Below, piece after piece: positions 4,111-28,796 of a stretch of 64,000 bases of DNA. The notes beneath the pieces were generated by a model that had not been told where the DNA came from, ran no database searches, and was given only the letters and a program-made list of their open reading frames with translations. The DNA lies in contig SKKN01000023.1 in the NCBI GenBank assembly GCA_007121455.1, positions 1 to 64,000 on the forward strand, in the 5' to 3' direction. The stretch comes from Gemmatimonadota bacterium. Lineage in GTDB: Bacteria; Gemmatimonadota; Gemmatimonadetes; Longimicrobiales; Gaopeijiaceae. The position numbers and the translations under genes were made by a program. The number at the start of each line of letters is the position of its first letter. Positions within the stretch are counted from its first letter, which is position 1.

Positions 4111-5027
4111 GGGCCCGGATGAGCTTCGCGGTGATCGGGGTCGTCTTCTCCCTGGCCCTTGCGGGGTGCTCCGATGTCTTTACGGAGCCCTTCGAGTACG
4201 GAACCGTGGAAGTCTCGGCAGAGAGGCGGACAGGGGATCCCGTTCCCGAGATGGACTTTCTCCTCTTTTCCGGCACCCGACACCTCGAATGGGGAGTGAC
4301 GGACGAAGAAGGGCTCATCGTCTTCCGGTTCGTTCCGCACGAGCCGGTCGGGGTCTTAGCTCATCCGGCCGACGTGTACATTCCGACCGATCCTGAAACC
4401 GGCTACGTCACGACCTTCCTCATGAGCGAAGGAGACGAGCGGCGGTTCACCTTCACCTTCTTCAAGGTCGGTCCCGGTTCGATCATGGCGACCGTAGAGG
4501 ATCCTGAGGAGGAGCCGATCGCAGATGTCCGACTGCAACTCTTCTCTCCGCAGGCACCGATCGAGGAGGGGCTCACCGATGGGGCCGGCGAACACACCTT
4601 CACCGACGTGCCGTTCGGAATCTACGGCGTGAGGGTGATCGGGGGGCCGGTCCAGCTGCCGCCGGGCGTCGGCGTCTTCCAGGACGGTCTGATCGCGGAA
4701 GCCGATCTGGTGGAGCGGGTGCATTTCGTGCTCGAACGTTGTCTGGGCGAAGTGCGGGCGTTGGCCTACGATGAAACCGGAGATCCGCTCGAGGACGTCC
4801 CTTTCACGATCTACCGGCCGGAGGTGATCGTGGATGAAGGGTCGTCCGGAGCCACCGGGGAGCACCTGTTCAGCGAGCTCCCATGTGGAGAGTATGGCGT
4901 ATCCGTGGGAGCGGTCCCCGGCTATGAGCTCATCGATCCCCCGGCAGGATTTCTCGACGGGCTCCTCGTGGAGCGGGGGTCCGAGCTGAGCGTAGAATTC
5001 ACCTTCTCGGAATGCTGCGAGGAGTGA
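4107..5027 (+). CDS. Lipoprotein with tandem carboxypeptidase-regulatory/SpaA-like domains
   Basis: 306 residues. A short Arg-containing N-region, a hydrophobic stretch and the lipobox LALAGC mark a lipoprotein. Three similar beta-sandwich units follow (about 30-120, 125-215, 220-305), each with a Gly-x-x-x-F turn (GLIVFRFVPHEPVGV, AGEHTFTDVPFGIYGV, TGEHLFSELPCGEYGV), the pattern of carboxypeptidase-regulatory-like or SpaA/Cna-B domains. It lacks enzyme motifs; a structural or binding role at the outer membrane is inferred. GTG 4107 overlaps the ligase-like stop; ATG 4119 is an alternative start. Its last 29 bases overlap, in convergent orientation, the 3' end of the Wzc-like gene. Confidence 0.8.
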   Translation: MRARMSFAVIGVVFSLALAGCSDVFTEPFEYGTVEVSAERRTGDPVPEMDFLLFSGTRHLEWGVTDEEGLIVFRFVPHEPVGVLAHPADVYIPTDPETGYVTTFLMSEGDERRFTFTFFKVGPGSIMATVEDPEEEPIADVRLQLFSPQAPIEEGLTDGAGEHTFTDVPFGIYGVRVIGGPVQLPPGVGVFQDGLIAEADLVERVHFVLERCLGEVRALAYDETGDPLEDVPFTIYRPEVIVDEGSSGATGEHLFSELPCGEYGVSVGAVPGYELIDPPAGFLDGLLVERGSELSVEFTFSECCEE

Positions 5028-7341
5028 ACCGGGAGCGGACGTCGTTCAGCACCACTCCGAGGAGGTTGCCCCCCGTCCGGCGGATCTGCTCGGCGGCCTC
5101 TGCGACAGCCTCTGTTGCCGTCTTCTCGCTCCGGGCGACGAGGAGCGCCCCGTCCGCGAGGGAGGTGAGAACCACTGCGTCGTGACCGATCGCGAGTGGA
5201 GACGTGTCGAGGATCACCACGTCGTAGGCTTCTCGGAGCCGTCCGAGGAAGGCACGGACCTTCTCCGATGTGAGAATCTCGAGCGGGTGGCCGGAGGCAG
5301 TTCCTGCGGGCAGGATGTGCAACGTTCCCGCGGAGTCACCCCCACCGGCCTCGTGGCGTGCCTCCTCGAGCGGTCCGCCGGAAACGGCAGCACGGACCCA
5401 GCCGGGGTGGGCGGGAACCCGGAAGATCGAGTGAAGGGTGCCGCTACGGAGGTCGCCGTCGAGAAGGACCACGCGGAGCCCCTGCTCGACTAGAGCCACA
5501 GCGAGGTTGGCAGCCACCGTGGACCGGCCGTCGTCCGGTTCGGGGCTCGCGACGACGATCGTACGGGGGGTGGCGTCCCTCGAGAGGAGGGTGAGGGCGA
5601 GGGCCCGGTATCCCTCGGACGCGGGCTGCCAGGGGTCGCTGCGGGTGACCGGGTTGGCGTCCTTGGTTCCGGCCCTTTTCCGGAAGGTTGGGATGATCCC
5701 CAATACCGGTCCTCCTGCCGCCTCCTGCGCATCCCGCTTCGAGCGGATGTTCCGGTTCGTACTCTCGGCCACGACCACGCCGAAGAGTCCGACCATCAAT
5801 CCGAGCACGATGCTCAGGACGAGGCTGATCTCCGGGCGGGGGAAGGCCGGGCGGTCCTCGATCACGCCGACGTCGACCGGCCGTGCGCGCGCATCGTCGA
5901 TCGCTTCCTGCACCTGGGCTTCGGTGAGCCGACCCTGGAGGAAGAGGTAGACCTCCGTGAGAAGCTTCTGCTCCCGCACCCGTCGCGCATACTCGAGCTC
6001 CACCTCGGGCATCGCCTCGAGCTCCGCGGAGAACCGCGAAAGCGAGGAGGAGGTCGACGCCAATTGGGTGTCGAGTCCCTCCAGGTAGTCCGTCGCGAGC
6101 GTGTGGATTTGCTCCTCGATCTCATGGACCCGCTCCTGAATCATCCGGACATCGACGTTCTGAGCCGTGCGCTGGACGAGGAGCTCGGAACGGCTGTTCT
6201 CCAGCTCCGTGAGCGCTTCCAGCAATCCCTGCACCGCACCGTTCTGGAGGAACGTCGGGAAGGTGGCGAGTTGACGGTACGGGGTTTCAGATCGGGGTGC
6301 AGCCTCACGGGTGCTGACATGCGTCAGGAACTCCGCAAGCGCCTCCCGTTCGACCTCGATGGCGTCGTGATGGACCTGGAGCTCGGCGATCCGCTTCACC
6401 TGCTGCGTCGCCTGTTCCTCGGGCGCGATGATCCGCTGCAACTCCTGGTATGCCTGGAGCCGGTCATCCGCCTCGGCGAGCTGAGCAGAGTAATGAGCGA
6501 CCTGCTCGGACAGGATCTCCACCTCACGGCGGGAGTCGCTCCTGTTCATCGTCTCGGAGTAATCCAGAAAGCTTCCGACGATCCTGTTCACCACCTCCTG
6601 GGCGAGATGCGGGTCCTGGTGCCGGTAGCTGACGGTGACGAGTCGGGAGCGTGTATCCTCTCGTCGGATGTCGAGATCTCGTCGGAGGCGCTGCACCATC
6701 CTCCGAAATGGGGCAACCTTGAACTGAACGACACGGGGGGGGGCCTCGGCGAGCTCCGGCTCCAGGAGGAAACGCATCTGCCCCACGGCGAATGGCTCTC
6801 CGATCGTCACCCGCTCCGGAAGCTCCACCTCTTCCCGGGTCCACCGCGAGGATACGTCGTACGTGCCGTCCGACTGGAGCCTCATCGTGTACGTTCCTCG
6901 AGGCGCATCGAGCCCGGCGTCCAGGACGTGGAGCACCGAGGTCCGGAACTCCCGCCACGGGCGGCTGAGGCTCACGTGGAGGGCGAGGGAGTCCGCAACG
7001 GCTTCGACGAGGAGGCGGCTTCCGAGCACACCGATCTCCGTCTCGACCTCCGTGTCTCCCAACCCCGGCAGATCGAGTCCCATCGGGATGGCGTCTTCGA
7101 GTCCGGCCATAAGGCCGCCACCACCCGTTGCCTGGGACGATCTCACCCGCACCGAAGCTTCGCTCTCCCAGACGGGGGGGAGGAGGAGGGTGACCAGCAT
7201 CACCACCGCGACCGCGCCTCCGGCAAGGCCGAAAAAGAGCTTCCAGCGCCGCCGCAGGGCCCGTTTCAGGTCCCGGAGGTTCAACTCCGAGCCACCGGAG
7301 CGGGTTGTTCGGCCTGGGGGGACATTCGATCGTCGATCCAT
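4999..7341 (-). CDS. Wzc-like polysaccharide co-polymerase with degenerate BY-kinase domain
   Basis: 780 residues. An N-terminal transmembrane helix (about 37-58) begins a Wzz domain, followed by a long coiled periplasmic region (about 220-480) and a second helix (about 505-530). The C-terminal domain (about 590-780) has the bacterial tyrosine-kinase fold: Walker A-like PDDGRSTVAANLA, Walker A' VVLLDGDLRS and Walker B VVILDTSPLA. The Walker A lysine is replaced by Arg606, and the C-terminus (RFTPRSIPRR) has no tyrosine cluster. ATP hydrolysis and autophosphorylation are therefore doubtful; it may act as a structural chain-length regulator or a partner of the canonical Wzc encoded at 30604-33054. 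It follows the Wzi-like gene by 21 bases in one minus-strand operon. Confidence 0.88.
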   Translation of the reverse strand: MDRRSNVPPGRTTRSGGSELNLRDLKRALRRRWKLFFGLAGGAVAVVMLVTLLLPPVWESEASVRVRSSQATGGGGLMAGLEDAIPMGLDLPGLGDTEVETEIGVLGSRLLVEAVADSLALHVSLSRPWREFRTSVLHVLDAGLDAPRGTYTMRLQSDGTYDVSSRWTREEVELPERVTIGEPFAVGQMRFLLEPELAEAPPRVVQFKVAPFRRMVQRLRRDLDIRREDTRSRLVTVSYRHQDPHLAQEVVNRIVGSFLDYSETMNRSDSRREVEILSEQVAHYSAQLAEADDRLQAYQELQRIIAPEEQATQQVKRIAELQVHHDAIEVEREALAEFLTHVSTREAAPRSETPYRQLATFPTFLQNGAVQGLLEALTELENSRSELLVQRTAQNVDVRMIQERVHEIEEQIHTLATDYLEGLDTQLASTSSSLSRFSAELEAMPEVELEYARRVREQKLLTEVYLFLQGRLTEAQVQEAIDDARARPVDVGVIEDRPAFPRPEISLVLSIVLGLMVGLFGVVVAESTNRNIRSKRDAQEAAGGPVLGIIPTFRKRAGTKDANPVTRSDPWQPASEGYRALALTLLSRDATPRTIVVASPEPDDGRSTVAANLAVALVEQGLRVVLLDGDLRSGTLHSIFRVPAHPGWVRAAVSGGPLEEARHEAGGGDSAGTLHILPAGTASGHPLEILTSEKVRAFLGRLREAYDVVILDTSPLAIGHDAVVLTSLADGALLVARSEKTATEAVAEAAEQIRRTGGNLLGVVLNDVRSRFTPRSIPRR

Positions 7342-7362: not shown

Positions 7363-9069
7363 TCAGGGAAGAGGCCTTCCACTGGCGAGAGTGACCTGAA
7401 CCGTATGATTTCGAATGTCCACCCCGCGATCCTCGGAATCGGACACGGGCTGGGCCTGAAAGAGGTAGTTGAGCCGGATCGAAGGTGCGTACTCCGCCGA
7501 GACCCGCAGCGGCCCTGCTTGGGCGGTCGCCCGCACCCCCATGAGGAGCGTGACGTCCGCACGTCGGAACTCGGGCAAGTACGTATAGAGCGCCTCGTTC
7601 TCCCACCGGATCCGGGCACCGTACACCCCCGCGCTCCAGCGTCGCCCGAGGACATCGGCGGCGAGCCACTGGCTCGAGCCGCTCGGGCCGATTGCGGCGC
7701 CGATCGTCCGCCCGCGGTGCGTATACCCCTGCGGGACGGCGCGGCTCGCGTACCACTCTCCGGGGGGCCGGATCCGGTAGCTCGTGCTTGGCTCCAGGTT
7801 CGTGATCTCGGTCTGGAAGCGGAAGTGGGTCGAACCAGGAGCCGACCGTGCATATTGCATGCCTACCGTGTAGCCACGGGAGTGATCGGGGAGCTCCAGC
7901 AGGTCGCGTAGGCTCTTCGGCTGCTCGTAGCGTCCCCATTCCCCGAAGGCCTCGAATCCAGCGCCCGGAAACACCCACCTTGCGAAGAGGGTGAAGAGCT
8001 GATCCCGGTCCGGTGCGAGAAGCGTATCGCCTGGAGCCGTGCTCGGTCGTCCCGCACTACGGAATACGTCGAGCGCGCTGCCCAGGGGGAGTCGACCGGA
8101 AGGCGCGTACACCGCGCGCGCGACCCCGATGGTGAGGTTCGGCTCGAATGCCGGAGCCAGGGTCAGGGCCAGGGCGCTCAACGATCGGTGGTCGTTCTCC
8201 GGGTCGAAGTCGAAGTAGTCCGACTCGACGAGCCGGCCCAGCAACCACCGCGCCTCCACGTTCCCGGCTCGAGTTTCGAGGGGTCGTTCCGTGCGCAGGA
8301 AGAGGTGAGGGATCCCGGGAGCCTGGGCGCTCATCAGGAGTCCGTTGCGGATGCCCGGGCCCCACCAGAGGTTCTCCGTAGCGGCGCCGAACGCCACCCG
8401 GCCGGTCCGCACCGTGAAGCTGCTCTGTCCGAGCTCGAGGAAGGTCCTCGGCTCCGTTCCAAAGCGGAGTGGGAGGTCCATCGACGCCGGCGGGTAGTGG
8501 AAGAGCGATGCCAGAACATGCCGGTCCCGCGGCAGCCCCGCCTCCGGAAAGGACGCTGTCTGGAACGCCCGGTTCTCTTCACGCACCACGTGCGGCGCCA
8601 GGATGAGCGCCGCGTTTCGGAAGCGGAAGCGAACACCCGCGGTGAGCTGGGTCGAAAGCCCGCGGCCCGCCCAGAGGGACCCCTGATTCATCGAATGGGG
8701 CAGGTCGGAGTTCCAGACCGTACGGAGCTCGGGGCTGAGGAGAGACCAGAAGACCGCGTTCTCCGCCGGGACATCCCAGAACGGCTCGTACCCGAGCGAT
8801 ACCGACAGGGTGGAAGGAGAGCGGAGAAGGAAACCCCTCGTGGAGGATCCTCGTGTCAGGTGGGCCAGGCGGAGGCGGTCCTCGTCCTCTCGCCCGAGGA
8901 TAGGAAGGGGAAGGAACGGCACGTCGGGAAGGTCGGAATGGAGAGCCTGGAGGGTCGGGATGGAGTCACCAGCCGGACCGAATGCACCCGCGTCCGGCAC
9001 GGGAACTCCGACGGGCGAAGCCGCCCCGACCGCGACAGAGCAGATGAGTGGAAGCAACCCGAAGAGCAT
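7363..9069 (-). CDS. Capsule assembly Wzi-family outer-membrane protein (first copy)
   Basis: 568 residues with an N-terminal hydrophobic signal sequence (about 1-17). The rest is rich in alternating beta strands. Family-like blocks include FWSLLSPELRTVWNSDLPHSMNQGS, split across strands, WAGRGLSTQLTAG, MDLPLRFG and NLWWGPGIRNGLLMS; the last resembles the Wzi constriction and substrate-binding segment. Wzi proteins are beta-barrels that help anchor capsule at the cell surface. It is the first gene of a minus-strand pair with the Wzc-like gene. Paralogues lie at 10105-11775 and 37000-38532. The ribosome-binding site is weak, and an in-frame stop lies just upstream of ATG 9069, so the start is well fixed. 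Confidence 0.83.
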   Translation of the reverse strand: MLFGLLPLICSVAVGAASPVGVPVPDAGAFGPAGDSIPTLQALHSDLPDVPFLPLPILGREDEDRLRLAHLTRGSSTRGFLLRSPSTLSVSLGYEPFWDVPAENAVFWSLLSPELRTVWNSDLPHSMNQGSLWAGRGLSTQLTAGVRFRFRNAALILAPHVVREENRAFQTASFPEAGLPRDRHVLASLFHYPPASMDLPLRFGTEPRTFLELGQSSFTVRTGRVAFGAATENLWWGPGIRNGLLMSAQAPGIPHLFLRTERPLETRAGNVEARWLLGRLVESDYFDFDPENDHRSLSALALTLAPAFEPNLTIGVARAVYAPSGRLPLGSALDVFRSAGRPSTAPGDTLLAPDRDQLFTLFARWVFPGAGFEAFGEWGRYEQPKSLRDLLELPDHSRGYTVGMQYARSAPGSTHFRFQTEITNLEPSTSYRIRPPGEWYASRAVPQGYTHRGRTIGAAIGPSGSSQWLAADVLGRRWSAGVYGARIRWENEALYTYLPEFRRADVTLLMGVRATAQAGPLRVSAEYAPSIRLNYLFQAQPVSDSEDRGVDIRNHTVQVTLASGRPLP

Positions 9070-9256: not shown

Positions 9257-10108
9257 ATGTACACCAGGACTCGTGACGCTCCTTCGCCCGGAGCGGAAGC
9301 GAAGGGCACCTCTCCTCGTGCCGGGCGCGGGGTGTTGAGGCGAATAGCTTGCACGGGGCGGGACACCCTCCATGCACTCAGCCGCCCTGCGCGCCGGGCG
9401 GCTCGGATCGCCCGGACCCGGATCTTCTCGCTCCGGGAAGGAAGGCACCACGAACAGTATTTTCCGAACCCCACGCTCCGGGAGTGCGTCGGATACCGGC
9501 CGAGCCGCACGGACATCTCGGACCATCTGAGCACTCTCTTCTTCACGGCCCTGGCGCAGAATGCGCGCCTCATCGTGGAGTTGGGAACACGTGGAGGGGA
9601 GAGCACGCGCACGCTCCTGGCGGCCGCGTCCCTCCTCGATGCACACGTGCTGAGCGTGGACATCGAGAACTGCTCCAGCCTCGACCTCCCCCACGACGAG
9701 CACTGGAGCTTCGTCGAAGCGGACGATGTCTCCTTCGGGCGGAGCGGGTTTCTGGAGTGGTGTGCAGCGGAAGGCGCGGCCCCCGAGATCGACCTCCTCT
9801 TCATCGATACTTCGCACGAGTACGAACACACCGTAGAGGAGCTCGACGTGTGGCTTCCCCACCTCGCGGAGAACGGTGTGGCGGTGTTTCACGACACGAA
9901 CATGAGGGAGGGAGTCTATGTCCGGATGGACGGTACCGTCGGGCACGGTTGGGACAACGAGCGGGGGGTCATCCGGGCGATCGAGGAGCGACTCGGAGCG
10001 TCCTTCGACGAAAACCGGCACTTCGCAGATGTCGCCGGGGAATTCCTCGTGATCCACTACCCTCACTGCAACGGGCTCACGCTCCTGAAGCGGCGCATGG
10101 TGGAATGA
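9257..10108 (+). CDS. Class I SAM-dependent methyltransferase-like protein
   Basis: 283 residues. After a basic N-terminal stretch of about 75 residues, the SAM-binding Rossmann core appears: motif I IVELGTRGGESTRTLL, an acidic strand end LSVDIEN, then IDLLFIDTSHEYEHTVEEL and GVAVFHDTN. This matches the Methyltransf_24/cephalosporin hydroxylase-like group often found in exopolysaccharide loci, where members methylate sugars. Substrate is unknown. ATG 9257 has GAGGAGG about nine bases upstream. The gene opens a plus-strand run and is joined to the Wzi-like gene by an ATGA overlap. The divergent gap 9070-9256 must hold promoters for both directions; none is clear. Confidence 0.8.
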   Translation: MYTRTRDAPSPGAEAKGTSPRAGRGVLRRIACTGRDTLHALSRPARRAARIARTRIFSLREGRHHEQYFPNPTLRECVGYRPSRTDISDHLSTLFFTALAQNARLIVELGTRGGESTRTLLAAASLLDAHVLSVDIENCSSLDLPHDEHWSFVEADDVSFGRSGFLEWCAAEGAAPEIDLLFIDTSHEYEHTVEELDVWLPHLAENGVAVFHDTNMREGVYVRMDGTVGHGWDNERGVIRAIEERLGASFDENRHFADVAGEFLVIHYPHCNGLTLLKRRMVE

Positions 10109-11775
10109 GAAGGGAACCCGCGGTCGGACGGCAATCTGCGCGAGCCGTGCTCCTCCTCCTGGTGGCGTCGTCGTTGATTTCGCCCCGCACCCCTTCGGCG
10201 GAGGCACAGGAATCCCAGCCAGCGCCTGTCATGGAGGAGGTATTCGCGGGGGAGGAGTTGGATCTCTATCTCCGGACGCTCCAGAACGTGGGTCGGGCTG
10301 CGTTCTACCCCTGGGCGATACGCGCCTTCTCGCCGCGGGAGGTGGAGGAACTGGCGGTAGCCGACTCGCTGCACCCGTGGGAGTCCCGCTACGCCTTCCG
10401 AATGGAGGGAAGCGAACGCTTCCGGTACGGGCTCATCCATCCACGTGCGACGGCGATCTACAACTCGACGTTCCCCTATGGGGGCAACGACGGTCCGCTC
10501 TGGGCAGGGAAGGGCCTCACCGGTGCCGTGCAGATCGGAGGATACCTGCGCTATGGGCCCGTCTCCTTCGTGCTGGCTCCCGTCGCCTTCCGCTCGCAGA
10601 ACCTGGACTTCGAGCCGGCACCGATCGGAAGAGGAGAGGGTCAGGTCTACGCAAGCCCCCTCTCGCCAGGCAACATCGACCTCCCGCAGCGGTTCGGCCC
10701 GGATCCGTACGCCCGCCTCGACATGGGGAGCTCTACGCTCCGGGTCGATGCTGTCGGGGTCACCGTGGGCGTCTCCACTGCGGCACAGCACTGGGGGCCC
10801 CTCTGGACGCACCCGCTCATCCTGGGGCCGAATGCCGGCGGTTTCCCGCACGCGTTCGCAGGCACGCAGCGTCCGATCCCGATCCTGATCGGGGACCTTC
10901 ACCTTCGGTACGTGATCGGTCGGCTGGACGAGTCGGATCAGAGCCCCGCTCAGGCCGAGGACTCCCGCCGCTTCATGGGTGGTCTCACAGCAGTGTATCT
11001 CCCGCGCGGACTCCCGGGCCTGGAGCTTGGGTTCTCGCGGTTCATCCACCGCGAATGGCCTGCGGATGGGCTTGGGTCGAGCCACCTGCGCCAGCCCTTC
11101 GAGATCGGGTTCAAGCAGAGCATTCCGGACGCGGACGAGCGGTTCGCCAACAACCAGCTCGCCTCCGTCTTCGGCCGCTGGAACGTTCCGGGCGCCGGAT
11201 TCGAGATCTTTGGGGAGTTCGTTCGGATCGATCATGCCTTCACGACCCGTGTCTTCGTGGTGGAGCCCGATGATTTGAGTGGGTACGCCCTCGGACTCCG
11301 GCGGGTGTGGGAAGGGCCAGATGACGCGCTCACGGTCCTCCGGGGCGAGGTATTCAGCACGGTCAGCTCGCATCGGCAACGAGGAGGTGCTCGCCTCAGC
11401 CTCGCCTACCGTGCGCGGCACATGTACCGCCACTCCGGGATCGTACAGGGGCACACGCACCGGGGGCAGCTTCTCGCCTCCCCGGCGGGCCATGGCGGCG
11501 CAGGCTCCACCCTCGGAATCGATCGATATCACCGGAACGGCCGGTGGAGCGTGGAGTGGCACCGGAGGGTCGAGCGAGATCGTACGGTGGGGATCGTGGG
11601 GTCGGATCCCGCCGACATCGACGTCACCTATGTGTTGAGTGTCGACGCGGTTCGCTTCGAAGGCCCCGTCGACCTCGACGTGGGGTTGGCAGCCGCGTAC
11701 AACTTGAACCGATACCTCCAGGACGACGCCTTCAATTGGAACCTGCGGGTCGGGGCGAGGATGATACCGAGGTGA
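10105..11775 (+). CDS. Capsule assembly Wzi-family outer-membrane protein (second copy)
   Basis: 556 residues. A signal peptide (about 1-35, ending SAEAQ) is followed by a short helical segment and a beta-rich barrel. Blocks parallel to the first copy are WAGKGLTGAVQIGGYLR, IDLPQRFG, AAQHWGPLWTHPLILG and GFPHAF. Unlike the first copy it keeps the N-terminal region with YLRTLQNVGRA before the barrel. It begins inside the methyltransferase stop codon (ATGA) and overlaps the flippase gene (GTGA), so methyltransferase, barrel and flippase form one translationally coupled unit. The role is capsule attachment or exit at the outer membrane (family knowledge). Confidence 0.82.
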   Translation: MRREPAVGRQSARAVLLLLVASSLISPRTPSAEAQESQPAPVMEEVFAGEELDLYLRTLQNVGRAAFYPWAIRAFSPREVEELAVADSLHPWESRYAFRMEGSERFRYGLIHPRATAIYNSTFPYGGNDGPLWAGKGLTGAVQIGGYLRYGPVSFVLAPVAFRSQNLDFEPAPIGRGEGQVYASPLSPGNIDLPQRFGPDPYARLDMGSSTLRVDAVGVTVGVSTAAQHWGPLWTHPLILGPNAGGFPHAFAGTQRPIPILIGDLHLRYVIGRLDESDQSPAQAEDSRRFMGGLTAVYLPRGLPGLELGFSRFIHREWPADGLGSSHLRQPFEIGFKQSIPDADERFANNQLASVFGRWNVPGAGFEIFGEFVRIDHAFTTRVFVVEPDDLSGYALGLRRVWEGPDDALTVLRGEVFSTVSSHRQRGGARLSLAYRARHMYRHSGIVQGHTHRGQLLASPAGHGGAGSTLGIDRYHRNGRWSVEWHRRVERDRTVGIVGSDPADIDVTYVLSVDAVRFEGPVDLDVGLAAAYNLNRYLQDDAFNWNLRVGARMIPR

Positions 11776-13277
11776 TCCGTCTCGGGGGACGGCGGCTCGC
11801 GAGACACGCGGCCCTGAACCTCCTGGGCCAGGGGATCCCTCTTCTCGCAGCCCTTCCAGCGATTCCCCTCCTGATCGATGGGGCGGGGGCGGAGCGTTTC
11901 GGCCTCCTCACGATCGTCTGGGTCCTCATCGGATATGTGAGCCTCTTCGATTTCGGGGTCGGCCGGGCTCTCACCCATGCGGTAGCCGAGCGGATGGGAC
12001 GGGGCGCGGAGGGCGAGGTACGAGCGGTCGTGCGGATGGGCGTCGGGGTCGCGGCCGCGCTCTCCCTCGCCACGGGGCTCCTCGTCTTTCTGGCGGCACC
12101 CTTCGTCGTGTCCCCGCTCCAGCTCGAGCCGGAGCTCTCGAATGAGGTGGTCGGCGCCGTGCGGATCGTGGGGCTGGCCGTCCCGTCCGTGGTCCTCGCA
12201 GCGGTGCTCCGCGGAGTGCTGGAAGGCCTCCGCCGCTTCGGGGTCGTGAACGCCATCCGAATGCCCATGGGGGTCGCCACCTTTCTCGCTCCTCTCGTCG
12301 TCCTTCCCTGGTCGTCGCATCTCGCCGCATTGGTGGGGGCTCTTCTCCTCACGCGGATCCTCGGCCTGGCCGGCTACGGCTGGGCCGTCCGACGGGCCCT
12401 GTCGGGACCCGCGTTCGGACCGGGTCCGCGGGCTGTCGCGTCCGCGGAGGGGAGGCGGGCCCTCCTGCGCTATGGGGGCTGGGCGACGGTGAGCAATCTC
12501 GTAGGCCCCTTGATGGTCCACTTCGATCGGGTCGCGATCGGAGCTCTCCTCACCGCATCGGCGGTTGCGTTCTACACCACCCCCTTCGAAATCGTCCACC
12601 GGCTCCTCCTCATTCCGACCGCGGTGGTCGCTGCGTTCTTCCCCGCGTTCGCACAGACCGCTGGAGCCGGACATGGAGGTACCCCGCGGCTCTTCCGGGG
12701 CTCGGTGAGGGGCATCCTCCTTCTCGTGTTCCCACCCGCGCTCCTCCTCTTTGCCTTCGCGGACGAGGGGCTGACGCTCTGGGTCGGGCCGGAGTTTGCG
12801 ACGGAGGGTGCTGCGGTCGTCCGATGGCTCCTCGTTGGGATGACCGCCAACGCGGTGGCTCATGTCCCATTCGTGCTCCTCCAGGGGGTTGGCCGGCCGG
12901 ATGTGACGGCGAAGCTTCATCTGCTCGAGGTACCCCTGTACGCGCTGGCACTTATCTGGGCGCTCCCCCGCTACGGGATCACCGGTGCGGCGGTAGTCTG
13001 GGCTGCCCGGGCACTCGTGGATCTCGCTCTCCTCCTCGTTGCTTCCGCTCGACTCCTCCCCGAAACCGCTCCGGAAGCACTCCGGGCGGCCGCACTCCTC
13101 GCGCCTGTCCTCGGGATCCTCGCGCTGCCCCTCGCCCTGTCGGGGCCGCTCGCCCGGGCCACGCTGGTCGCCGGGATCACGCTGGGTGCGGTGCTGGCAG
13201 GGTTGCAGTGGGCACGCGGAGAACGCGCCGTGACCGGAGGCGAGATGAGTCCACGCTCGCCCACACTCTTCCGCTGA
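11772..13277 (+). CDS. Wzx-type polysaccharide repeat-unit flippase (MOP/PST family)
   Basis: 501 residues with about twelve to fourteen hydrophobic helices and few charged residues outside loops. Typical features of polysaccharide transporters are an N-terminal helix pair around LLGQGIPLLAALPAIPLL, GRALTHAVAERMG, FDRVAIGALLTASAVAFYTTPFEI and WVGPEF, the last matching a common Wzx loop. It would flip undecaprenyl-linked repeat units to the periplasm. GTG 11772 overlaps the preceding stop. The locus also encodes a PglK-like ABC flippase (18577-20367), an unusual redundancy. The 168 bases after this gene (13278-13445) are non-coding and end with a possible -10 element TATACA at 13359-13364. Confidence 0.87.
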   Translation: MIRLGGRRLARHAALNLLGQGIPLLAALPAIPLLIDGAGAERFGLLTIVWVLIGYVSLFDFGVGRALTHAVAERMGRGAEGEVRAVVRMGVGVAAALSLATGLLVFLAAPFVVSPLQLEPELSNEVVGAVRIVGLAVPSVVLAAVLRGVLEGLRRFGVVNAIRMPMGVATFLAPLVVLPWSSHLAALVGALLLTRILGLAGYGWAVRRALSGPAFGPGPRAVASAEGRRALLRYGGWATVSNLVGPLMVHFDRVAIGALLTASAVAFYTTPFEIVHRLLLIPTAVVAAFFPAFAQTAGAGHGGTPRLFRGSVRGILLLVFPPALLLFAFADEGLTLWVGPEFATEGAAVVRWLLVGMTANAVAHVPFVLLQGVGRPDVTAKLHLLEVPLYALALIWALPRYGITGAAVVWAARALVDLALLLVASARLLPETAPEALRAAALLAPVLGILALPLALSGPLARATLVAGITLGAVLAGLQWARGERAVTGGEMSPRSPTLFR

Positions 13278-13445
13278 AGCCTGGATCGAAGACGCGCCGG
13301 GGCCCTCCCCAGAGGCGCCCGCCCCACTTGCGTCGGGGCGAGCTTTGCCCGTATTTCGTATACATGGCGCGTGCGGATCCCCTCCGTGCGAGCCCCGTAC
13401 GGCGCTCACTCGAGCGTCGAGTCAGCGGCTCCGTCAGGTGTGCCC

Positions 13446-16127
13446 ATGGGACTGACGGGCACGGAGTGCGCCGACCCTGGACGTTCCTCCCCTGTTTCTG
13501 ATCACTACCTCCTTACCGGCCATCCTCTCGGAGCGATGAACCGACTCCTGGACGTGGCGGGGGCGGCGGCGCTTCTCATGCTCTCCGCACCCGTGATGCT
13601 CGTAGCCGCGCTCGTGGTGAAGCTCAGCTCGCCCGGCCCGGTGTTCTTTGCGCACTGGCGGTGCGGAAAGGACCACGAGCCGTTTAAGTGTTTCAAGTTT
13701 CGCACGATGGTGCGGGATGCCGAGCAGTGGCTCGAGAGCGACGAGAAGCTGAGGCAGGCGCACCGGCGGAACGGGTTCAAGCTTGCGACGGTCTGGGACC
13801 CACGGGTGACCCCGGTTGGGCGATTCCTTCGAACGACGCACCTCGACGAGCTTCCCCAGCTCTGGAACGTGCTGCGGGGAGAGATGTCCCTGGTCGGTCC
13901 GCGGCCGATCGTGGGCGAGGAGTTGAAGGAGTACGGCGAGCGGGCGGACGAACTCCTGAGCGTACGCCCCGGCATCTTCGGGGAATGGACCGCGATGGGC
14001 AGCGACCGGCCTCCATACCCGGGTCGGGTCGAGGTGGAGTTGTCGTACATAGAGGCTCCCTCCGTCTCACGATATCTCTCGGTCCTCTGTCGGAATCTTC
14101 CGGTGCTCATCCAGGGGCAAAAGGCGTCGTCTTCCTACGACCGGTTCCGGGCCGGCACCCTCGACATCACCGGGTCGGTCGGCCGAGTGGGGGCGGGGAC
14201 GGTCTCGAATGGAGGCCGCACCCTCACCTCGATCGCGGAATCGATCATCTTGAGCCTCCAAAAGAACCGCCGCGACGTCGCGATCGGGGTGTATGCAGGC
14301 GTCGCAGGTGTTGCATATGCGTTCGCCTTCCTGATCCGCTTCGAGTTTTCGGTTCCGGCTCCGTACGTTCTCACCCTCGTGATCACGTTCCCGGTCCTGG
14401 TGGCCATCCGGGTCGCCGCGAGCCAGATCTTCCGCTTGAATACCGGCCGGTGGCGATTCGTCGGCACCCAGGACGTCGTCCGGCTCGTGGGGACGACGCT
14501 GGTGGGGACCTTTGCGTTCTGGCTGACCCTTCTCCTCGTTCCCTTTCTGCCTCCGGTGCCCCGGTCGATTCTGCTCCTCGAGTGGATTCTGACGACCTCG
14601 GGAACTGCCGGCATCTGGATCACCTACCGGGTCTGCTTCGAGCGCCTCCGGCAGCGAGGGTCGAGGCTCACCAGCGATGCGACCCGCGTCCTCGTGGTGG
14701 GTGCGGGAGAGGCGGGGAATCTGTTGGCGCGGGAGATCCTCCGTTTTCCCACCGGTTACCGCCTCGTCGGGTTCGTGGACGACGACCCCCTCAAATGGGG
14801 CACGACGCTGCACGGGGTGGATGTGATCGGCGGCACGATCGAGCTCGCGATGATCGTGGAGGAGGCATTGGCCGAGGAAGTGATCATCGCGACGCCTTCG
14901 GCTACGCCCTCCCAGCTCCGGACGATCGTGACGAGGTGCGAAGAAGTGAACGCGCCCTTCAAGGTCCTGCCCGGGATCTCGGAGGTGCTCGCAGGGGACG
15001 TGAGCGTGAAGCAGCTACGCCCGCTTCGGATCGAGGACTTGCTGGGCCGGGAGCCGGTGAATCTGGAGCTTCCCGAGTTGGAGAAGGATCTCGAAGGCCG
15101 GTGCGTGCTGATCACCGGTGCGGCGGGCTCCATCGGCTCCGAACTCGCCCGGCAGGTCGCCCTCCACCGGCCGAAGAAGCTCATCCTCCTCGATCAGGCG
15201 GAGAGCGACCTCTACTTTCTGGAGCTGGAGCTCCGGAAGCGGCATCCGGAACTCTTTCTCGTACCCGTTATCGGGAACGTTCTCGATGAGGCGTGTGTGG
15301 GCACCCTCTTTCGCAGCTGTCATCCGGAGCGCGTCTTCCACGCAGCCGCCTACAAGCACGTGCCGATGATGGAGGCGAATGTGCGGGAGGCGATCCGGAA
15401 CAACGTGCTGGGGACGTGGAAGGTGGCGCGGATGGCAGGAGAGTATGGGTGCGAAAAGTTCGTCCTGATCTCCACGGACAAGGCGGTGGATCCCGCGAGC
15501 GTCATGGGCGCGACGAAGAGGGTGGCCGAGCTCGCGACGATGGCGTGCCATGACCGCTTCGGAGGCACGTCCTTCGTCGCCGTGCGGTTCGGAAACGTGT
15601 TGGGCTCGAACGGAAGCGTGATTCCGGTCTTCCAGCGGCAGCTCGAGGTCGGAGGCCCGCTCACGGTCACACATCCGGACGTGACGCGGTACTTCATGAC
15701 GACCTCGGAGGCTGTACAACTGGTCCTCCAGGCGTCCGTGTTGAAGGACGCGCAAGGGCAGGTGGCGATGCTCGACATGGGCGAGCCGGTCCGGATCGTG
15801 GAGCTGGCCGAGAACCTGGTCCGCCTCTCCGGGCTTCGCGTGGGGAGCGATGTGGACATCGTCTTCACCGGGCTTCGCCCCGGGGAGAAGCTCCACGAAC
15901 AGCTCGCCGCCGACCATGAACGGACGAGGGCCACAGCCGTCCGGAAGGTGCGGATCGTGGAGAGTTCCGGAGCATCCGCCGCTTTTTGCGCCACCTGGGA
16001 GCGGATGGAAGCGCTCGATCCGGAGATTGCTGCCGCCGACGGGGAGGACCTTCGCGTACTCCTCTCCCAACTGGTCGGCCTTCCTCACTCCGGGCTCAGT
16101 CAAACGGTGAGGGCTCGCGCTGTATGA
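13446..16127 (+). CDS. Fusion: phosphoglycosyl transferase + PglF/FlaA1-type UDP-sugar 4,6-dehydratase
   Basis: 893 residues. Residues about 30-220 form a monotopic PGT domain: membrane helix starting NRLLDVAG, FKFRTM, the catalytic Asp134-Glu135 in LDELPQLWN, and [10 protein letters not shown]. After a linker come four hydrophobic helices (about 275-390), a Rossmann domain (RVLVVGAGEAGN, VGFVDDDP, about 415-535) and an SDR domain (about 545-850) with ITGAAGSIGSE. Its triad is Ser676-Met687-Lys691 (STDKAV, VMGATK), the Ser-Met-Lys arrangement known for WbpM/PglF-type dehydratases. The protein would both make the 4-keto-6-deoxy UDP-sugar and start lipid-linked glycan synthesis. Starts at GTG 13371 and ATG 13536 are possible; none has a strong ribosome-binding site. 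No neighbour overlaps it. Confidence 0.9.
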   Translation: MGLTGTECADPGRSSPVSDHYLLTGHPLGAMNRLLDVAGAAALLMLSAPVMLVAALVVKLSSPGPVFFAHWRCGKDHEPFKCFKFRTMVRDAEQWLESDEKLRQAHRRNGFKLATVWDPRVTPVGRFLRTTHLDELPQLWNVLRGEMSLVGPRPIVGEELKEYGERADELLSVRPGIFGEWTAMGSDRPPYPGRVEVELSYIEAPSVSRYLSVLCRNLPVLIQGQKASSSYDRFRAGTLDITGSVGRVGAGTVSNGGRTLTSIAESIILSLQKNRRDVAIGVYAGVAGVAYAFAFLIRFEFSVPAPYVLTLVITFPVLVAIRVAASQIFRLNTGRWRFVGTQDVVRLVGTTLVGTFAFWLTLLLVPFLPPVPRSILLLEWILTTSGTAGIWITYRVCFERLRQRGSRLTSDATRVLVVGAGEAGNLLAREILRFPTGYRLVGFVDDDPLKWGTTLHGVDVIGGTIELAMIVEEALAEEVIIATPSATPSQLRTIVTRCEEVNAPFKVLPGISEVLAGDVSVKQLRPLRIEDLLGREPVNLELPELEKDLEGRCVLITGAAGSIGSELARQVALHRPKKLILLDQAESDLYFLELELRKRHPELFLVPVIGNVLDEACVGTLFRSCHPERVFHAAAYKHVPMMEANVREAIRNNVLGTWKVARMAGEYGCEKFVLISTDKAVDPASVMGATKRVAELATMACHDRFGGTSFVAVRFGNVLGSNGSVIPVFQRQLEVGGPLTVTHPDVTRYFMTTSEAVQLVLQASVLKDAQGQVAMLDMGEPVRIVELAENLVRLSGLRVGSDVDIVFTGLRPGEKLHEQLAADHERTRATAVRKVRIVESSGASAAFCATWERMEALDPEIAAADGEDLRVLLSQLVGLPHSGLSQTVRARAV

Positions 16128-16197: not shown

Positions 16198-17325
16198 TCA
16201 CGGGCGAGAACGAGGGGTGGTTGCGCTGAACGTCTCGAGTTTTTCCTCGACGTACCTGGCGAGCTGTTGCCGGATGCGGATCCGGTCGAATTCGAGAGCC
16301 CGGCGGCGGGCGCGATCCGGATCCCACACGTGCTCGAGCGCTCGGGCGACCGCCCTGTTCAAGGCCTCGGAAGAGGGTTCGTGGAAGAAGACGCCGGTCT
16401 CGCCCTCCACTACGGTCTCGAGGGCTCCCCCCCTCCCATATGCTACGACCGGTTTGCCGCAGGCCATCGCCTCGAGTGGGGTGATGCCGAAGTCCTCCTC
16501 CCCGGGAAAGAGGAAGGCGGAGCACCCTCGGTAGTAGCGGACGAGTTCGGCAGGCTCCACCCAGCCGGTGAATTCGACGTTGGGCCCTGCCTTCCGGCGG
16601 AGGGCGCTCATCTCCGGGCCGTCTCCCACGACGACGAGCTTTCGGCCGGACGTCTTGCAGGCATCGACCGCGAGATCGGCGCGCTTGTAGCCGGTCAACT
16701 CGCCCACGAAGAGGAGATACCCTTCGTCCGCAGGATCTCCCGGCGTAAAGCGTTCGCAGTCGACCGGACAGTGGATCACATCGGCCTCGCGTCCCCAGTA
16801 GCGCTGGATCCGCTTTCGCACGTTCTCGGAGTTCGCGAGGAAATGATCGACTCGCTGGGCTCCGGCATAGTCCCAGACCCGGAGCCAGGCCGCGATCGGC
16901 CCCCAGAGCATCCTCCGGATGGGGCCCAGCGTCCGAGCGTATTCCGGAGCCATGTTCCAGAGGTACCGCATGGGAGTCTCGGTATAGCAGATGTGGCAGG
17001 TTTCCGGCTGCGTGATCACGCCCTTTGCAGGGCCGGACTCGGAGCTGATCACCAGGTCGTAGTCGCGGAGGTCGAAGGACTCGAGCGCCATGGGCATGAG
17101 CGGAAGGTACATCTGGTACCGGGAGACGCCGAAGGGCAGGCGTTGGATGAAGGACGGCGTCACCTTGTGGCGGTTGATCGTCTCCGACATGGCGTCGCGA
17201 TCGTACACGAGGGTGTAGAGGTCGGCCTCGGGGAAGAGCTCGCAGAAGAGCTCCAGCAGGCGCTCTCCACCTCGCATCTTTACGAGCCAGTAATGGACGA
17301 TGGCGACCCGCAGGGGACGAGTCAC
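16198..17325 (-). CDS. GT4 family glycosyltransferase
   Basis: 375 residues, GT-B fold. The N-terminal domain begins VAIVHYWLVKMRGGERLLE and contains CHICYTETPMRYLW, typical of WbaZ/mannosyltransferase-like enzymes. The C-terminal domain has LLFVGELTGYKRADLA, a nucleotide-binding block, and EEDFGITPLEAMACGKPVV, with the paired glutamates of GT4 retaining enzymes. It probably uses GDP-mannose or a UDP-sugar; this is not resolvable. GTG 17325 is chosen because homology-like sequence begins immediately after it. A strong inverted repeat lies one base upstream of this start. It is the only minus-strand gene between 9.1 and 40.7 kb, convergent with the fusion gene; the 70-base gap contains a run of seven T (16171-16177) but no clear stem. 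Confidence 0.86.
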   Translation of the reverse strand: MTRPLRVAIVHYWLVKMRGGERLLELFCELFPEADLYTLVYDRDAMSETINRHKVTPSFIQRLPFGVSRYQMYLPLMPMALESFDLRDYDLVISSESGPAKGVITQPETCHICYTETPMRYLWNMAPEYARTLGPIRRMLWGPIAAWLRVWDYAGAQRVDHFLANSENVRKRIQRYWGREADVIHCPVDCERFTPGDPADEGYLLFVGELTGYKRADLAVDACKTSGRKLVVVGDGPEMSALRRKAGPNVEFTGWVEPAELVRYYRGCSAFLFPGEEDFGITPLEAMACGKPVVAYGRGGALETVVEGETGVFFHEPSSEALNRAVARALEHVWDPDRARRRALEFDRIRIRQQLARYVEEKLETFSATTPRSRP

Positions 17326-17326
17326 C

Positions 17327-17356
17327 GCACCGGCCGCCCGAGGCCGGAGCCGGTGC
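17327..17356. repeat. Perfect inverted repeat next to the GT4 start
   Basis: GCACCGGC (17327-17334) and GCCGGTGC (17349-17356) form an eight-base perfect dyad around 14 bases. In the minus-strand transcript the hairpin would end one base before the GTG at 17325 and cover the expected ribosome-binding region. It could be a protein operator or an RNA hairpin limiting translation. Confidence 0.5.
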
Positions 17357-17482
17357 CGCTCGCTCCCCCCGGGATGAATCGTCTCACCAGGGCACGTCCT
17401 TGAATTCCGGTTGGAAAGGTGGGTCCGCCTTGCAAGGGCAGGGTAGGAACGTGAGGCGGTCCGGGCAAGGCGGAGGAGCCAG

Positions 17483-18580
17483 GTGAAGCTGGCCGTGGAC
17501 TCGTGTCTCCTCCATGGAGGGGGCATCGGACGGTACCTTCGGGAGTTGACGGCCCGATGGCTCGAGCGCAGCGAGATTCATGAGATCCTCTTCATGGGCG
17601 ACCCGGATGAACTCGACCCCTTTCTCGAGAAGCACGACGACCGACGCGTGGGTCGAGTTGTGGGGTGGCCGGGCGGACCCTATTCGGTCAGACGACACGT
17701 CAGTTGGCCTGGAGCGCCGCGCCGCGCCGCAGCCTCCGCGGACGTCACCTTCTTCCCCCACTATGACGTGCCTCTGTTCGGGGTGCCGAGCCCGTACGTC
17801 GTCACCGTTCACGACCTGACGCACTTCCGGGTTCCGGAAGCGTTCCCTGCGGTCAAGCGCTGGGCCGGTTGGCGTTTGCTCCGGAGGGCGGTGAAGGGTG
17901 CAGAGGAGGTGGTCACGGTCTCGGAGAGGAGCCGGAGGGATCTGGAGCACGCCTTTCCGAGGCGAACGCCGAGGATCCAGGTCGTGGCGAACGGAGTCTC
18001 GTCCACCTTCCGGCGTCCTTCCTCCGCGGGAGCGGATGAGCTCCCCCGTTCGTGGAACGAAAAGAAGCCGTACCTGCTCTTCACCGGTGGTGACCGTCCG
18101 CACAAGAACCTGCCGTTCGCCATCGAGGTGCATCGGCGGCTCAGGGAGGAGTGGCCTGATCTGCGCCTGCTGGTACTGGGCACGATCGAGGGGAACGGGC
18201 AGGGCCCGGACGGAGTGGTCGAGCTTGGTGCGCTCTCCGATGGGGAGCTACATGGGGCACTGGCCGACGCGATCGCGGTGTTGATCCCGTCCCTCTACGA
18301 AGGGTTCGGTCTCCCCGCGCTCGAGGCGATGGCGTGTGGAACTCCGGTGGTGGTGTCGAACCGGGGCTCGCTACCGGAGGTCGTGGGAGACGCCGCAAAG
18401 GTCCTCGACCCGGTGGCGCCGGAGCCCTGGGTACAGGCGGTGCTCGATCTCGTGGAGAAACCGGAAGCGCGCACGACATGGGTCCAAAAGGGAATCGAAC
18501 GAGTCGATGCTTTCTCCTGGAGCAAGGCGGCGGACCAGACGCTGAAGATCCTGACCGCGGCGCGGGAACGCCGGCGATGA
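17483..18580 (+). CDS. GT4 family glycosyltransferase
   Basis: 365 residues, GT-B fold. N-terminal MKLAVDSCLLHGGGIGRYL is the glycine-rich donor-side loop; VVTVHDLTHFRVPEAF is a block common in mannosyl- and rhamnosyltransferases of O-antigen loci. The C-terminal domain has LLFTGGDRPHKNLPFAIE and PSLYEGFGLPALEAMACGTPVV with the two catalytic-motif glutamates. GTG 17483 has GGAGG six bases upstream. It starts a long chain of overlapping genes running to 27494; its stop overlaps the ABC flippase start (ATGA). It adds one sugar of the lipid-linked oligosaccharide; donor and linkage are unknown. Confidence 0.88.
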   Translation: MKLAVDSCLLHGGGIGRYLRELTARWLERSEIHEILFMGDPDELDPFLEKHDDRRVGRVVGWPGGPYSVRRHVSWPGAPRRAAASADVTFFPHYDVPLFGVPSPYVVTVHDLTHFRVPEAFPAVKRWAGWRLLRRAVKGAEEVVTVSERSRRDLEHAFPRRTPRIQVVANGVSSTFRRPSSAGADELPRSWNEKKPYLLFTGGDRPHKNLPFAIEVHRRLREEWPDLRLLVLGTIEGNGQGPDGVVELGALSDGELHGALADAIAVLIPSLYEGFGLPALEAMACGTPVVVSNRGSLPEVVGDAAKVLDPVAPEPWVQAVLDLVEKPEARTTWVQKGIERVDAFSWSKAADQTLKILTAARERRR

Positions 18581-20367
18581 GAGGCACGGTCGCGAAGCTG
18601 CTGGCCCTGCTCACTCCCCGGGAGCGACGCCGCGGCCTCATCGTGCTGTGCATGATGCTGCTGCTGGCCGTGCTCGAAACCGCCGGAGTAGCCTCGGTGA
18701 TGCCCTTTCTCGCGATCCTCGGGAATCCCGAGATGGTGGAGGCCAACCCTGCCCTGAAGTGGGCGTTCGAACGGGGAGGTTTCAACTCCGTCGACAGCTT
18801 CCTCTTCGCCCTCGGAATCGGGGCGTTCCTGCTCGTGGTCTCGTCCGCACTCTTCCGGATCGTCACGACCTATGCGATGAACCGGTTCGTCCAGATGCGG
18901 CGGTATTCCATCGGTTCGCGCCTCCTTCAGGTCTACCTCAGGCAGCCGTACGTGTTCTTCTTGAATCGGAACAGCGCGGACCTTTCGAAGAGCATCCTCT
19001 CCGAGGTGGACGAGTTGGTGAGCAAGGTGATCAAGCCCGCGATCGACCTCACCGCATACGGCCTCGTCGCCGGCTTGCTCGTGGTGCTACTCGTCGCATT
19101 CGATCCGATGCTTGCCCTGGTGGTGACATTGATGATCGGGGGTGCCTACCTCGTCATCTACGTGGGTGTACGAGGCCTGTTGAACAGAATGGGGGGGGAC
19201 AGGGTGCTGGCGAATCGGGAGCGGTTCACAGCGGCGAGCGAGGCATTCGGGGGCATCAAGGACCTGAAGGTGCTCGGCCGGGAGGGGGCCTATGTGGCAC
19301 GCTTCCAGGATCCTGCCGCTCGGTTCGCTCGCTACCATTCCCTTGCCGCCACTTTGTCGGCAGCTCCCAAGTACCTGATCGAAGCCGTGGGGTTTGGTGG
19401 GTTGCTTGCGCTCTCCCTGGTGTTGATGAGCACCAGGGAAACGCTGGGAGAGGTCCTCCCCCTCCTCGGCCTCTACGCATTTGCCGGATACCGCCTGCTA
19501 CCGGCTGCCCAGCACATCTACGCAGCGGCCAGCGCGCTTCGCTTCGGGTTCCCCGCTGTGGAGGCGGTCTACCAGGACCTGTCCCAAAGACCGAAGACCG
19601 CACAGAAGCCGGCCGGAAAGCAGGCGCCCCTCCCCCTACGGCAGAGCATCCGCTTCGAGTCTGTCGGCTTCCGGTATCCCGGTGCAGAGAGGGACGCTCT
19701 CGAAGGGCTGGACATCACCATCCAGGCTCGAACCTCCGTCGCGTTCGTGGGGGAGACGGGAGCGGGGAAGACCACGGCGGTGGACCTCGTCCTCGGTCTA
19801 CTGGAACCCACACGTGGCAACATCCTGATCGACGACCAGGAGTTGGTCCCGGGGAACCTCCGTCGATGGCAACGCTCGATCGGATACGTCCCGCAGACGA
19901 TCTACCTTGCGGATGCATCCGTGTCCGAGAACATCGCCTTCGGCCTGGATCGGAGCGAGATCGACCAGGAAGCCGTGCAGCGCGCCGCGCGGATCGCGAA
20001 CATCCACACTTTCATTTCGAGCGAGCTGCCCCGAGGCTATGACACCGAGGTGGGCGAGCGCGGCGTGCGTCTGTCGGGTGGCCAGCGGCAGCGCATCGGG
20101 ATTGCCCGCGCCCTCTATCACGATCCGGCACTGCTGGTTCTGGACGAAGCCACGAGTGCGCTCGACAGTGGGACGGAACGAGCGATCATGGAATCCGTGG
20201 AGCGACTGAGCGGAGACAAGACGATCCTCATGATCGCTCACCGGATGAGCACGGTGAAGGGCTGTGACAAGATCATCGTCCTGGAGGGGGGGCGCGTACG
20301 GGGGGTGGGACGGTTCGAGGAGCTCAAGCACTCCAATGAGGTGTTCCGGAGGTTGGCGGTGGCATGA
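18577..20367 (+). CDS. PglK-like ABC transporter (lipid-linked oligosaccharide flippase)
   Basis: 596 residues: a fused membrane domain (six helices, about 20-310) and ATPase domain (about 350-590). The ATPase has Walker A GETGAGKTT, signature LSGGQRQRIGIARAL, Walker B LLVLDEATSALD and H-loop IAHRMST. From memory of the family, order, length and details (ETAGVASVMPFLAIL early, LYAFAGYRLLPAAQHIY before the ATPase) match Campylobacter PglK, which flips the undecaprenyl-linked N-glycan precursor. It sits in a glycosyltransferase chain with PglC, PglD and PglE homologues nearby, which supports this over a drug or lipid-A exporter. Substrate is inferred. ATGA overlaps occur on both sides. Confidence 0.85.
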   Translation: MRGTVAKLLALLTPRERRRGLIVLCMMLLLAVLETAGVASVMPFLAILGNPEMVEANPALKWAFERGGFNSVDSFLFALGIGAFLLVVSSALFRIVTTYAMNRFVQMRRYSIGSRLLQVYLRQPYVFFLNRNSADLSKSILSEVDELVSKVIKPAIDLTAYGLVAGLLVVLLVAFDPMLALVVTLMIGGAYLVIYVGVRGLLNRMGGDRVLANRERFTAASEAFGGIKDLKVLGREGAYVARFQDPAARFARYHSLAATLSAAPKYLIEAVGFGGLLALSLVLMSTRETLGEVLPLLGLYAFAGYRLLPAAQHIYAAASALRFGFPAVEAVYQDLSQRPKTAQKPAGKQAPLPLRQSIRFESVGFRYPGAERDALEGLDITIQARTSVAFVGETGAGKTTAVDLVLGLLEPTRGNILIDDQELVPGNLRRWQRSIGYVPQTIYLADASVSENIAFGLDRSEIDQEAVQRAARIANIHTFISSELPRGYDTEVGERGVRLSGGQRQRIGIARALYHDPALLVLDEATSALDSGTERAIMESVERLSGDKTILMIAHRMSTVKGCDKIIVLEGGRVRGVGRFEELKHSNEVFRRLAVA

Positions 20368-27501: not shown

Positions 27502-28134
27502 ATGGGCCGGGACGCCACCTACCAGCACGTGAAAAGGGCCCTTGATGTCGTGGTCGCAGGCACGGGGCTGGTCGTGCTTCTTCCGTCGATGTTCGTCATC
27601 GGTGTCGCGGTGCTCGTGTCCGTGGGACGGCCGGTGCTGTTCCGCCAAGCGCGCCCGGGGCTCCACGGCGAGCTGTTCACGATCCTGAAGTTCCGCACCA
27701 TGAGGCACGAGCAGGACGAGGCTGGGCGGCCTCGTCCGGACCATCAACGGCTCACCCGAGTCGGTCGCCTCCTCCGTTCGACGAGCCTCGACGAGTTGCC
27801 GGAGCTCTGGAACGTGTTCAAGGGAGAGATGAGCCTGGTGGGCCCTCGCCCTCTCCTGGTCAACTACCTCCCACTCTACTCCGAAGAGCAGGTGCGGCGG
27901 CACGAAGTTCGACCGGGCATCACCGGATGGGCCCAGGTCAACGGTCGGAACTCCGTACCGTGGGAGGAACGTTTTCGAATGGACGTCTGGTACGTGGAGA
28001 ATCGAAGCCTTCTCCTCGACCTCCGGATCCTGGCGACGACGCTCCTGAGGGTCGTGCAGGCACGGGACATCTCCGCACCGGGACACGTCGCCCAACCACC
28101 GTTTCAAGGTCGGGAGGAGCGGACCTCTCGATGA
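27502..28134 (+). CDS. PglC-like phosphoglycosyl transferase
   Basis: 210 residues, close to the 200 of Campylobacter PglC. A single re-entrant membrane helix (about 10-37) follows [10 protein letters not shown]; then come [21 protein letters not shown] in part, [24 protein letters not shown] with the Asp-Glu catalytic pair, and [20 protein letters not shown]. Such monotopic enzymes transfer phospho-sugar from a UDP-sugar to undecaprenyl phosphate. With PglD- and PglE-like genes next to it, UDP-bacillosamine is the likely donor. It ends in an ATGA overlap with the acetyltransferase gene. The window's second PGT is the domain fused to the dehydratase. Confidence 0.92.
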
Positions 28135-28796
28135 TCGACGCGGTGCTTGGCGCCGGAGGCCACGGAAGGGAGTTGATCGAGCTTCTTCGAGATGCCGCCT
28201 CACCGACCGGTGGGCCTGATCGGGAGATGGTCGTGCTCGATGACGATCCGGAGCTTCACGGGACCAGGGTGGGAGGCGTAGCAGTCGCAGGGCCCCTCTC
28301 GATGCTCACTCGACTCGGTCCGGAAGTGTCGTGCTATCTCGGCGTCGGCTACCCGGAGGTGAAGCGGCGAATCTTCGAGGCCGTCCCGGGCGTTCCTGTA
28401 GACTGGCCTCCGGCCGTTCACCGGTTTTCGGCCATCGGTGGGGACGTCGAGGTCGGGCGAGGTGTGCTCGTCCAGGCCGGGTGTGTCGTCACGACGGGGG
28501 TGAAGGTCGGCGGCTTCGCCACCCTGAACGTAGGAGCGACGGTCAGCCACGACTGCACCGTGGCCGAGTGGGCTACCCTTTCGCCGGGAGTCCACATCGC
28601 CGGAAACGTCTCGATCGGGGAAGGGGCCTTCCTCGGAATCGGGGCTTCGGTGATCCAGAACGTGCGGATCGGCGCCTGGAGCGTGGTCGGAGCAGGCGCA
28701 TTGGTTCTGGAGGACGTGGAGCCGCACTCGGTGGTCGTGGGAGTGCCTGCACGGCCGATTCCCACATACAAGAAAGGTAGCCATGGCAGCCCGTGA
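28131..28796 (+). CDS. PglD/NeuD-like sugar O/N-acetyltransferase
   Basis: 221 residues. The N-terminal Rossmann-like domain (about 1-85) has VLGAGGHGRELIELL and VVLDDDPELHG, the UDP-sugar-binding half. The C-terminal left-handed beta-helix (about 90-215) has hexapeptide repeats, with ATVSHDCTVAEWATLSPG containing the catalytic-type His, and VVVGVPARPI at the end. PglD acetylates the 4-amino group of the UDP-4-amino sugar with acetyl-CoA. It is joined by ATGA to PglC and overlaps the aminotransferase gene by 14 bases, giving the gene order C-D-E. Confidence 0.9.
   Translation: MIDAVLGAGGHGRELIELLRDAASPTGGPDREMVVLDDDPELHGTRVGGVAVAGPLSMLTRLGPEVSCYLGVGYPEVKRRIFEAVPGVPVDWPPAVHRFSAIGGDVEVGRGVLVQAGCVVTTGVKVGGFATLNVGATVSHDCTVAEWATLSPGVHIAGNVSIGEGAFLGIGASVIQNVRIGAWSVVGAGALVLEDVEPHSVVVGVPARPIPTYKKGSHGSP

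Follow-up and report, generated by a model that had tools for sequence, protein, structure and literature searches.

Bifunctional monoPGTs (Bi-PGTs), in which another functional domain is attached at the N- or C-terminus, form a described class according to the accessible text of PMC10942596, which cites O'Toole et al. 2021, and sugar-modifying domains on small monoPGTs are mentioned in PMC12802240. In their accessible passages, neither text names a PglF partner or describes a WbaP-type PGT that is joined to an entire PglF, or a mismatch of pathways within one protein. The protein described here carries a functional domain joined to the terminus of a monoPGT core, in this case a complete membrane PglF on a WbaP-type PGT, and belongs to this already described kind. 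Sugar-modifying enzymes are reportedly among three common kinds of monoPGT fusion, as the abstract of O'Toole et al. 2021 is said to put it.

Salmonella WbaP, a large PGT, has the same type of PGT catalytic domain as the fusion and also contains four-TM and DUF modules. In WbaP these modules precede the PGT and no dehydratase is present, whereas in the fusion they follow the PGT. Campylobacter PglC shares the monoPGT core, the DE dyad and PRP with the fused PGT, but its loop length and C-terminal tail are missing from the latter. UDP-Gal-using WbaP and UDP-diNAcBac-using PglC differ in loop, C-terminus and aromatic box, and the differences in loop and C-terminus may account for the sugar specificity of both enzymes (PMC10942596). 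The same TM, DUF and SDR layout and the same catalytic residues as in the fusion are found in C. jejuni PglF, which is about 40% identical over the solved part and, unlike the fusion, is without a PGT domain. The occurrence of four-TM and DUF modules in both PGTs and PglF-like dehydratases has been called puzzling (PMC10942596).

Reading frame and domain layout

The fused gene, part of a surface-polysaccharide cluster, occupies positions 13446-16127 (+) of the analysed 64,000-nucleotide stretch of Gemmatimonadota DNA (here called the window). Its 893 residues are read through without a stop or a change of frame. Pfam profiles locate Bac_transf at residues 33-221 (profile 2-177 of 179, E 2.7e-51), CoA_binding_3 (PF13727) at 336-507 (E 8.5e-10) and Polysacc_synt_2 (PF02719) at 554-838 (profile 1-291 of 293, E 2.3e-104). 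With domains near full length, the original prediction of a PGT and a PglF/FlaA1-type dehydratase in one uninterrupted frame is confirmed, and Asp134-Glu135, Ser676, Met687 and Lys691 sit where it had placed them.

The monotopic PGT domain comprises residues 31-228 (13536-14129, +) with a hydrophobic segment at 33-64. It is followed by an interdomain linker of residues 229-265 (14130-14240, +), of which 229-259 are predicted to be disordered by AlphaFold2. The PglF part begins with four predicted membrane helices at residues ~275-407 (14268-14666, +), modelled as 275-298, 305-328, 341-363 and 373-407; hydropathy shows three peaks inside 277-372 compared to these four helices. A Rossmann-like CoA_binding_3 (DUF) domain at residues ~410-515 (14673-14990, +), also matched by 3nkl, leads to the SDR 4,6-dehydratase domain with its STDK...M...K signature (residues 554-838; 15105-15959, +). 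The AlphaFold2 model, calculated from an input alignment of 15 rows, exhibits a mean pLDDT of 81 with well folded PGT and PglF parts, and because its pTM is 0.51 it does not fix the relative packing of the two halves.

Possible starts are Met1 (ATG 13446), a GTG at 13371 and Met31 (ATG 13536). A weak AGGTG lies upstream of the start at 13446, residues 1-26 are predicted to be disordered, and homology begins at residue 31. Codon-position G+C keeps one phase throughout linker 229-265 (GC3 0.75 and 0.88), so there is no sign of the hidden frameshift between two genes that had been named as a possible refutation. Of the internal starts that could yield a separate PglF product, GTG248 and TTG269 are present, neither with a well-placed Shine-Dalgarno sequence.

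Assignment of the two halves

The PGT half possesses a complete Bac_transf core with PRP, an N-terminal hydrophobic, putatively re-entrant helix and the Asp134-Glu135 dyad in THLDELPQLWN (codons 13845-13850). Asp134 is invariant among the relatives; Glu135 is kept here and lost in three fusions of other bacteria. Comparison with WbaP gave 137.7 bits (E 3.5e-39) versus 82.8 bits (E 2e-22) with PglC. The alignment tracks WbaP through the helix-turn-helix and the loop region and ends at the end of the WbaP core, while that to PglC stops at residue 167 of its 205; a PglC-like mobile loop and the conserved C-terminal tail are missing. Judged by its sequence, the fused PGT is WbaP-type and not PglC-like. 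It is not a large PGT of the WbaP/WcaJ kind, as the four-TM and DUF modules come after the PGT core and belong to PglF.

At residues ~174-190 (~13965-14020) the fused PGT, like its relatives in Gemmatimonadota, shows PGIFGxWTxxG, where WbaP and PglC have PGxTGxxQVxGR. By this signature, the PGTs concerned are classed as a distinct subfamily. Since the family has its own motif, PGIFGEWTA in place of the usual PGxTG, a WbaP-like sugar specificity of the fused PGT is a guess.

For the dehydratase half, C. jejuni PglF is the closest enzyme by sequence (E 1.1e-73). Its structure matches the model with Z 43.3 and an rmsd of 1.9 over 337 residues, compared to a lower Z of 32.7 for the inverting PseB-type enzyme 2gn4; the list of this fold search was taken up by the SDR domain and is uninformative on the PGT and TM parts. 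Ser676, Met687 and Lys691 are located in ISTDKAVDPASVMGATK, and together with Asp678 and Lys679 they are invariant in the alignment with relatives. With TM helices, CoA_binding_3 and Polysacc_synt_2 as well as TDK, Met and Lys, the half has the architecture of a PglF-type retaining 4,6-dehydratase. Stand-alone PglF homologues occur throughout the phylum, the best one being 73% identical (genome G001), and are collinear with the fusion from residue ~242-270 on; TM helices and DUF are therefore assigned to PglF. No other PglF-type dehydratase was found in the window's genome, in which the fusion carries the sole copy.

Gene neighbourhood and origin of the fusion

Directly upstream of the fusion lies a Wzx-type flippase (11544-13277, +; Pfam Polysacc_synt), and downstream, on the opposite strand, a GT4 glycosyltransferase (16198-17526, -), whose homologue adjoins a stand-alone PGT in G032, G304 and G018. 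The same glycosyltransferase cluster also holds an ABC exporter whose membrane and ATPase parts are fused (18334-20367, +).

Eleven kb downstream of the fusion, in the same cluster, PglC-, PglD- and PglE-type genes are contiguous at 27.5-29.9 kb. The separate PGT (27532-28134, +; frame from 27379) matches PglC along its full length including the C-terminal tail common to PglC (PDB PglC, E 1.9e-59). It is followed by a PglD/NeuD-type sugar N-acetyltransferase (28140-28796, +, start approximate), which reaches 181.7 bits against TIGR03570 (cut-off 160.8) and matches PglD structures, and by a PglE-type sugar aminotransferase (28783-29928, +; PF01041, 3.4e-108; 1o61/4ztc, about 1e-90). A full PglF-E-D-C set is thus present, yet the PglC in it is not the fused PGT; a better PglC adjoins PglD and PglE. 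The original reading, which placed the two halves at the PglC and PglF steps of a single pathway, could not be upheld. Of the 21 related genomes, only the window's own and G009 combine PglF with close homologues of PglC and PglE. Further, the window contains two Wzc-type, one Wzz-type chain-length and two Wzi-like proteins (4999-7341, -; 30604-33054, +; 33155-34297, +; 7363-9069, -; ~10050-11775, +), a set suggestive of two neighbouring systems for polysaccharide assembly.

In G032 the locus reads Wzc - Wzi - Wzi - GT4 - Wzx - PGT - GT4 - PglF, all as separate genes, with PGT and PglF 1.5 kb apart. The GT4 between them is the homologue of the gene directly downstream of the fusion, where it lies on the opposite strand. 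This arrangement points towards a local rearrangement that probably brought the PGT and PglF genes together before they fused. Unfused PGT and PglF also share a locus in G304 and a contig in G190, in all three cases without a close PglE. A second copy of the fused gene was found in none of 58 relatives, 395 genomes of the phylum and 121 genomes of the family.

In the PglF tree the fusion pairs with the unfused G001 protein as its sister (99% SH-aLRT), and PGT-PglF fusion needs at least four changes. In the PGT tree the fused PGT falls inside a clade (100/100) of Gemmatimonadota PGTs, the rest of which are unfused, the other fused PGTs lie elsewhere, and fused rows are united in 0 of 200 bootstrap trees.

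The PGT-then-dehydratase order, which might have been unique, recurs in Nitrospirota, Acidobacteriota and Eisenbacteria. A contig scan revealed one-frame PGT-PglF fusions in Ca. Manganitrophus, Troglogloeales, an SZUA-72 bin, Terriglobia and Eisenbacteria. Those of Ca. Manganitrophus/Troglogloeales (L037, L041, L043), Terriglobia (L054) and Eisenbacteria (L047) have the same order, a PGT followed by a full PglF, and on the trees their origins are separate from that of the window fusion. Two further candidates, L034 (847 aa) and L128 (873 aa), which had drawn suspicion by their long open frames, were rejected since their PGT frames are without dehydratase. A separate PGT directly upstream of PglF is frequent (Desulfuromusa, Geobacter, Geotalea, Methylophilus and Chitinophagaceae, among others), and this frequent adjacency may have made repeated fusion easy. 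The neighbour order PGT then PglF occurs on annotated plasmids too. No record in the plasmid collection has a single place covering 80% of the fusion; in the best plasmid records listed, the match covers sugar transferase genes and dehydratase genes that each have an annotation of their own.

Function of the fused enzyme

We lean towards a bifunctional enzyme, specific to this lineage and co-localising its activities: the dehydratase would supply a diNAcBac branch, and the PGT would initiate chains with another, WbaP-type sugar. The fusion itself, the types of its domains, their residues, the neighbouring genes and the independent origin are established; activities, sugars and benefit of the fusion are inferred. 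The enzyme would have arisen by in-frame joining, in this lineage, of two genes from the same polysaccharide locus. The complete PglF-type C-terminal half would convert UDP-GlcNAc into UDP-4-keto-6-deoxy-GlcNAc. As this is the genome's only PglF-type enzyme, its product most likely goes to the enzymes of PglE and PglD type, and to the separate PGT of PglC type, encoded downstream. The WbaP-type N-terminal half would transfer, via covalent Asp134, a different sugar-1-phosphate to undecaprenyl phosphate and start the chain. Fusion would hold both activities at one membrane face in equal dose. Product channelling from half to half is unlikely, because two soluble enzymes for the PglE and PglD steps, and probably also a different PGT, intervene. 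Of the purposes originally proposed for the fusion, co-localisation at the membrane remains a reasonable inference, while coupling of PglC and PglF within a single pathway is not supported in view of the WbaP-type PGT and the separate PglC.

It is quite improbable that the fused PGT acts as the PglC counterpart, using UDP-diNAcBac that PglE and PglD derive from the product of its own dehydratase, so that the fusion couples supply to initiation. PGT and PglF do form one chain, PglD and PglE types lie within the same cluster, and PGT genes beside PglF are common elsewhere, many of them closer to the PglC-type PGT. However, the fused PGT reaches 137 bits against WbaP and 83 against PglC and lacks the PglC tail, the better PglC adjoins PglD/PglE, and stand-alone relatives of the fused PGT exist without PglF or PglE. 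Alternatively, the PGT may take a different sugar made via PglF, such as a 4-reduced or 4-amino one, of the conserved Wzc-Wzi-Wzi-Wzx locus, with both halves forming one short pathway. The unfused pairs in G032, G304 and G190 favour this, and in accordance with them the original role of PglF may be to supply a sugar belonging to the PGT's own locus, which counts against the co-localising enzyme with two separate sugars. We nevertheless consider a single short pathway unlikely. A long PglF is absent from 7 of the 14 family genomes with this PGT type (among them some incomplete assemblies); this argues against the PGT strictly requiring a sugar derived from PglF, and a dedicated 4-reductase beside PglF was not recognised in G032.

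A regulatory role, in which a WbaP-type PGT without its own four-TM/DUF modules borrows those of PglF and the nucleotide-sensing domain controls both activities as in a permuted large PGT, appears highly doubtful. The modules are common to WbaP and PglF, precisely these parts recur in the fusion, permuted, and the WbaP DUF is stabilised by uridine nucleotides, with UMP inhibiting WbaP at 4.1 uM (PMC10942596). Against this, close relatives of the fused PGT exist without these modules, and the model (pTM 0.51) offers no confident interdomain contact. A sequencing or assembly error joining two genes is hardly credible: the fused gene is known from one assembly only, its relatives have separate genes, and a single assembly leaves room for a substitution error that removed a stop, but the coding phase is constant, no stop occurs, the linker GC3 is coding-like and similar fusions are found in independent genomes. 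Tentatively, the co-localising enzyme might also be a mismatched fusion, in which the WbaP-type initiating PGT of one glycan is tied to the dehydratase supplying the starting sugar of another, so that two pathways competing for undecaprenyl phosphate are coupled, possibly via the nucleotide-sensing DUF of the PglF half.

That PGT and PglF became fused repeatedly and independently in several phyla suggests a benefit from keeping them together at the membrane, and these proteins are natural constructs for telling co-localisation, regulation and channelling apart. The window fusion also warns against taking a fused PGT for the PglC of its partner's pathway.

In three Nitrospirota-type fusions the Glu of the dyad, which the window protein retains, is replaced (L037:6161-8773, L041:230-2722 and L043:1-2436; D-R, D-Q and D-V). 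L037 also has an intact PglC-type PGT gene (4866-5567) immediately upstream of the fusion. There the fused PGT may be a non-catalytic scaffold. PglF is directly followed by a second dehydratase, shorter and of Polysacc_synt_2 type, in G007, G037 and G009 (L015:639-3673, L014:551-4009, L144:6186-10338), where a single locus may thus have two UDP-GlcNAc dehydratases at work.
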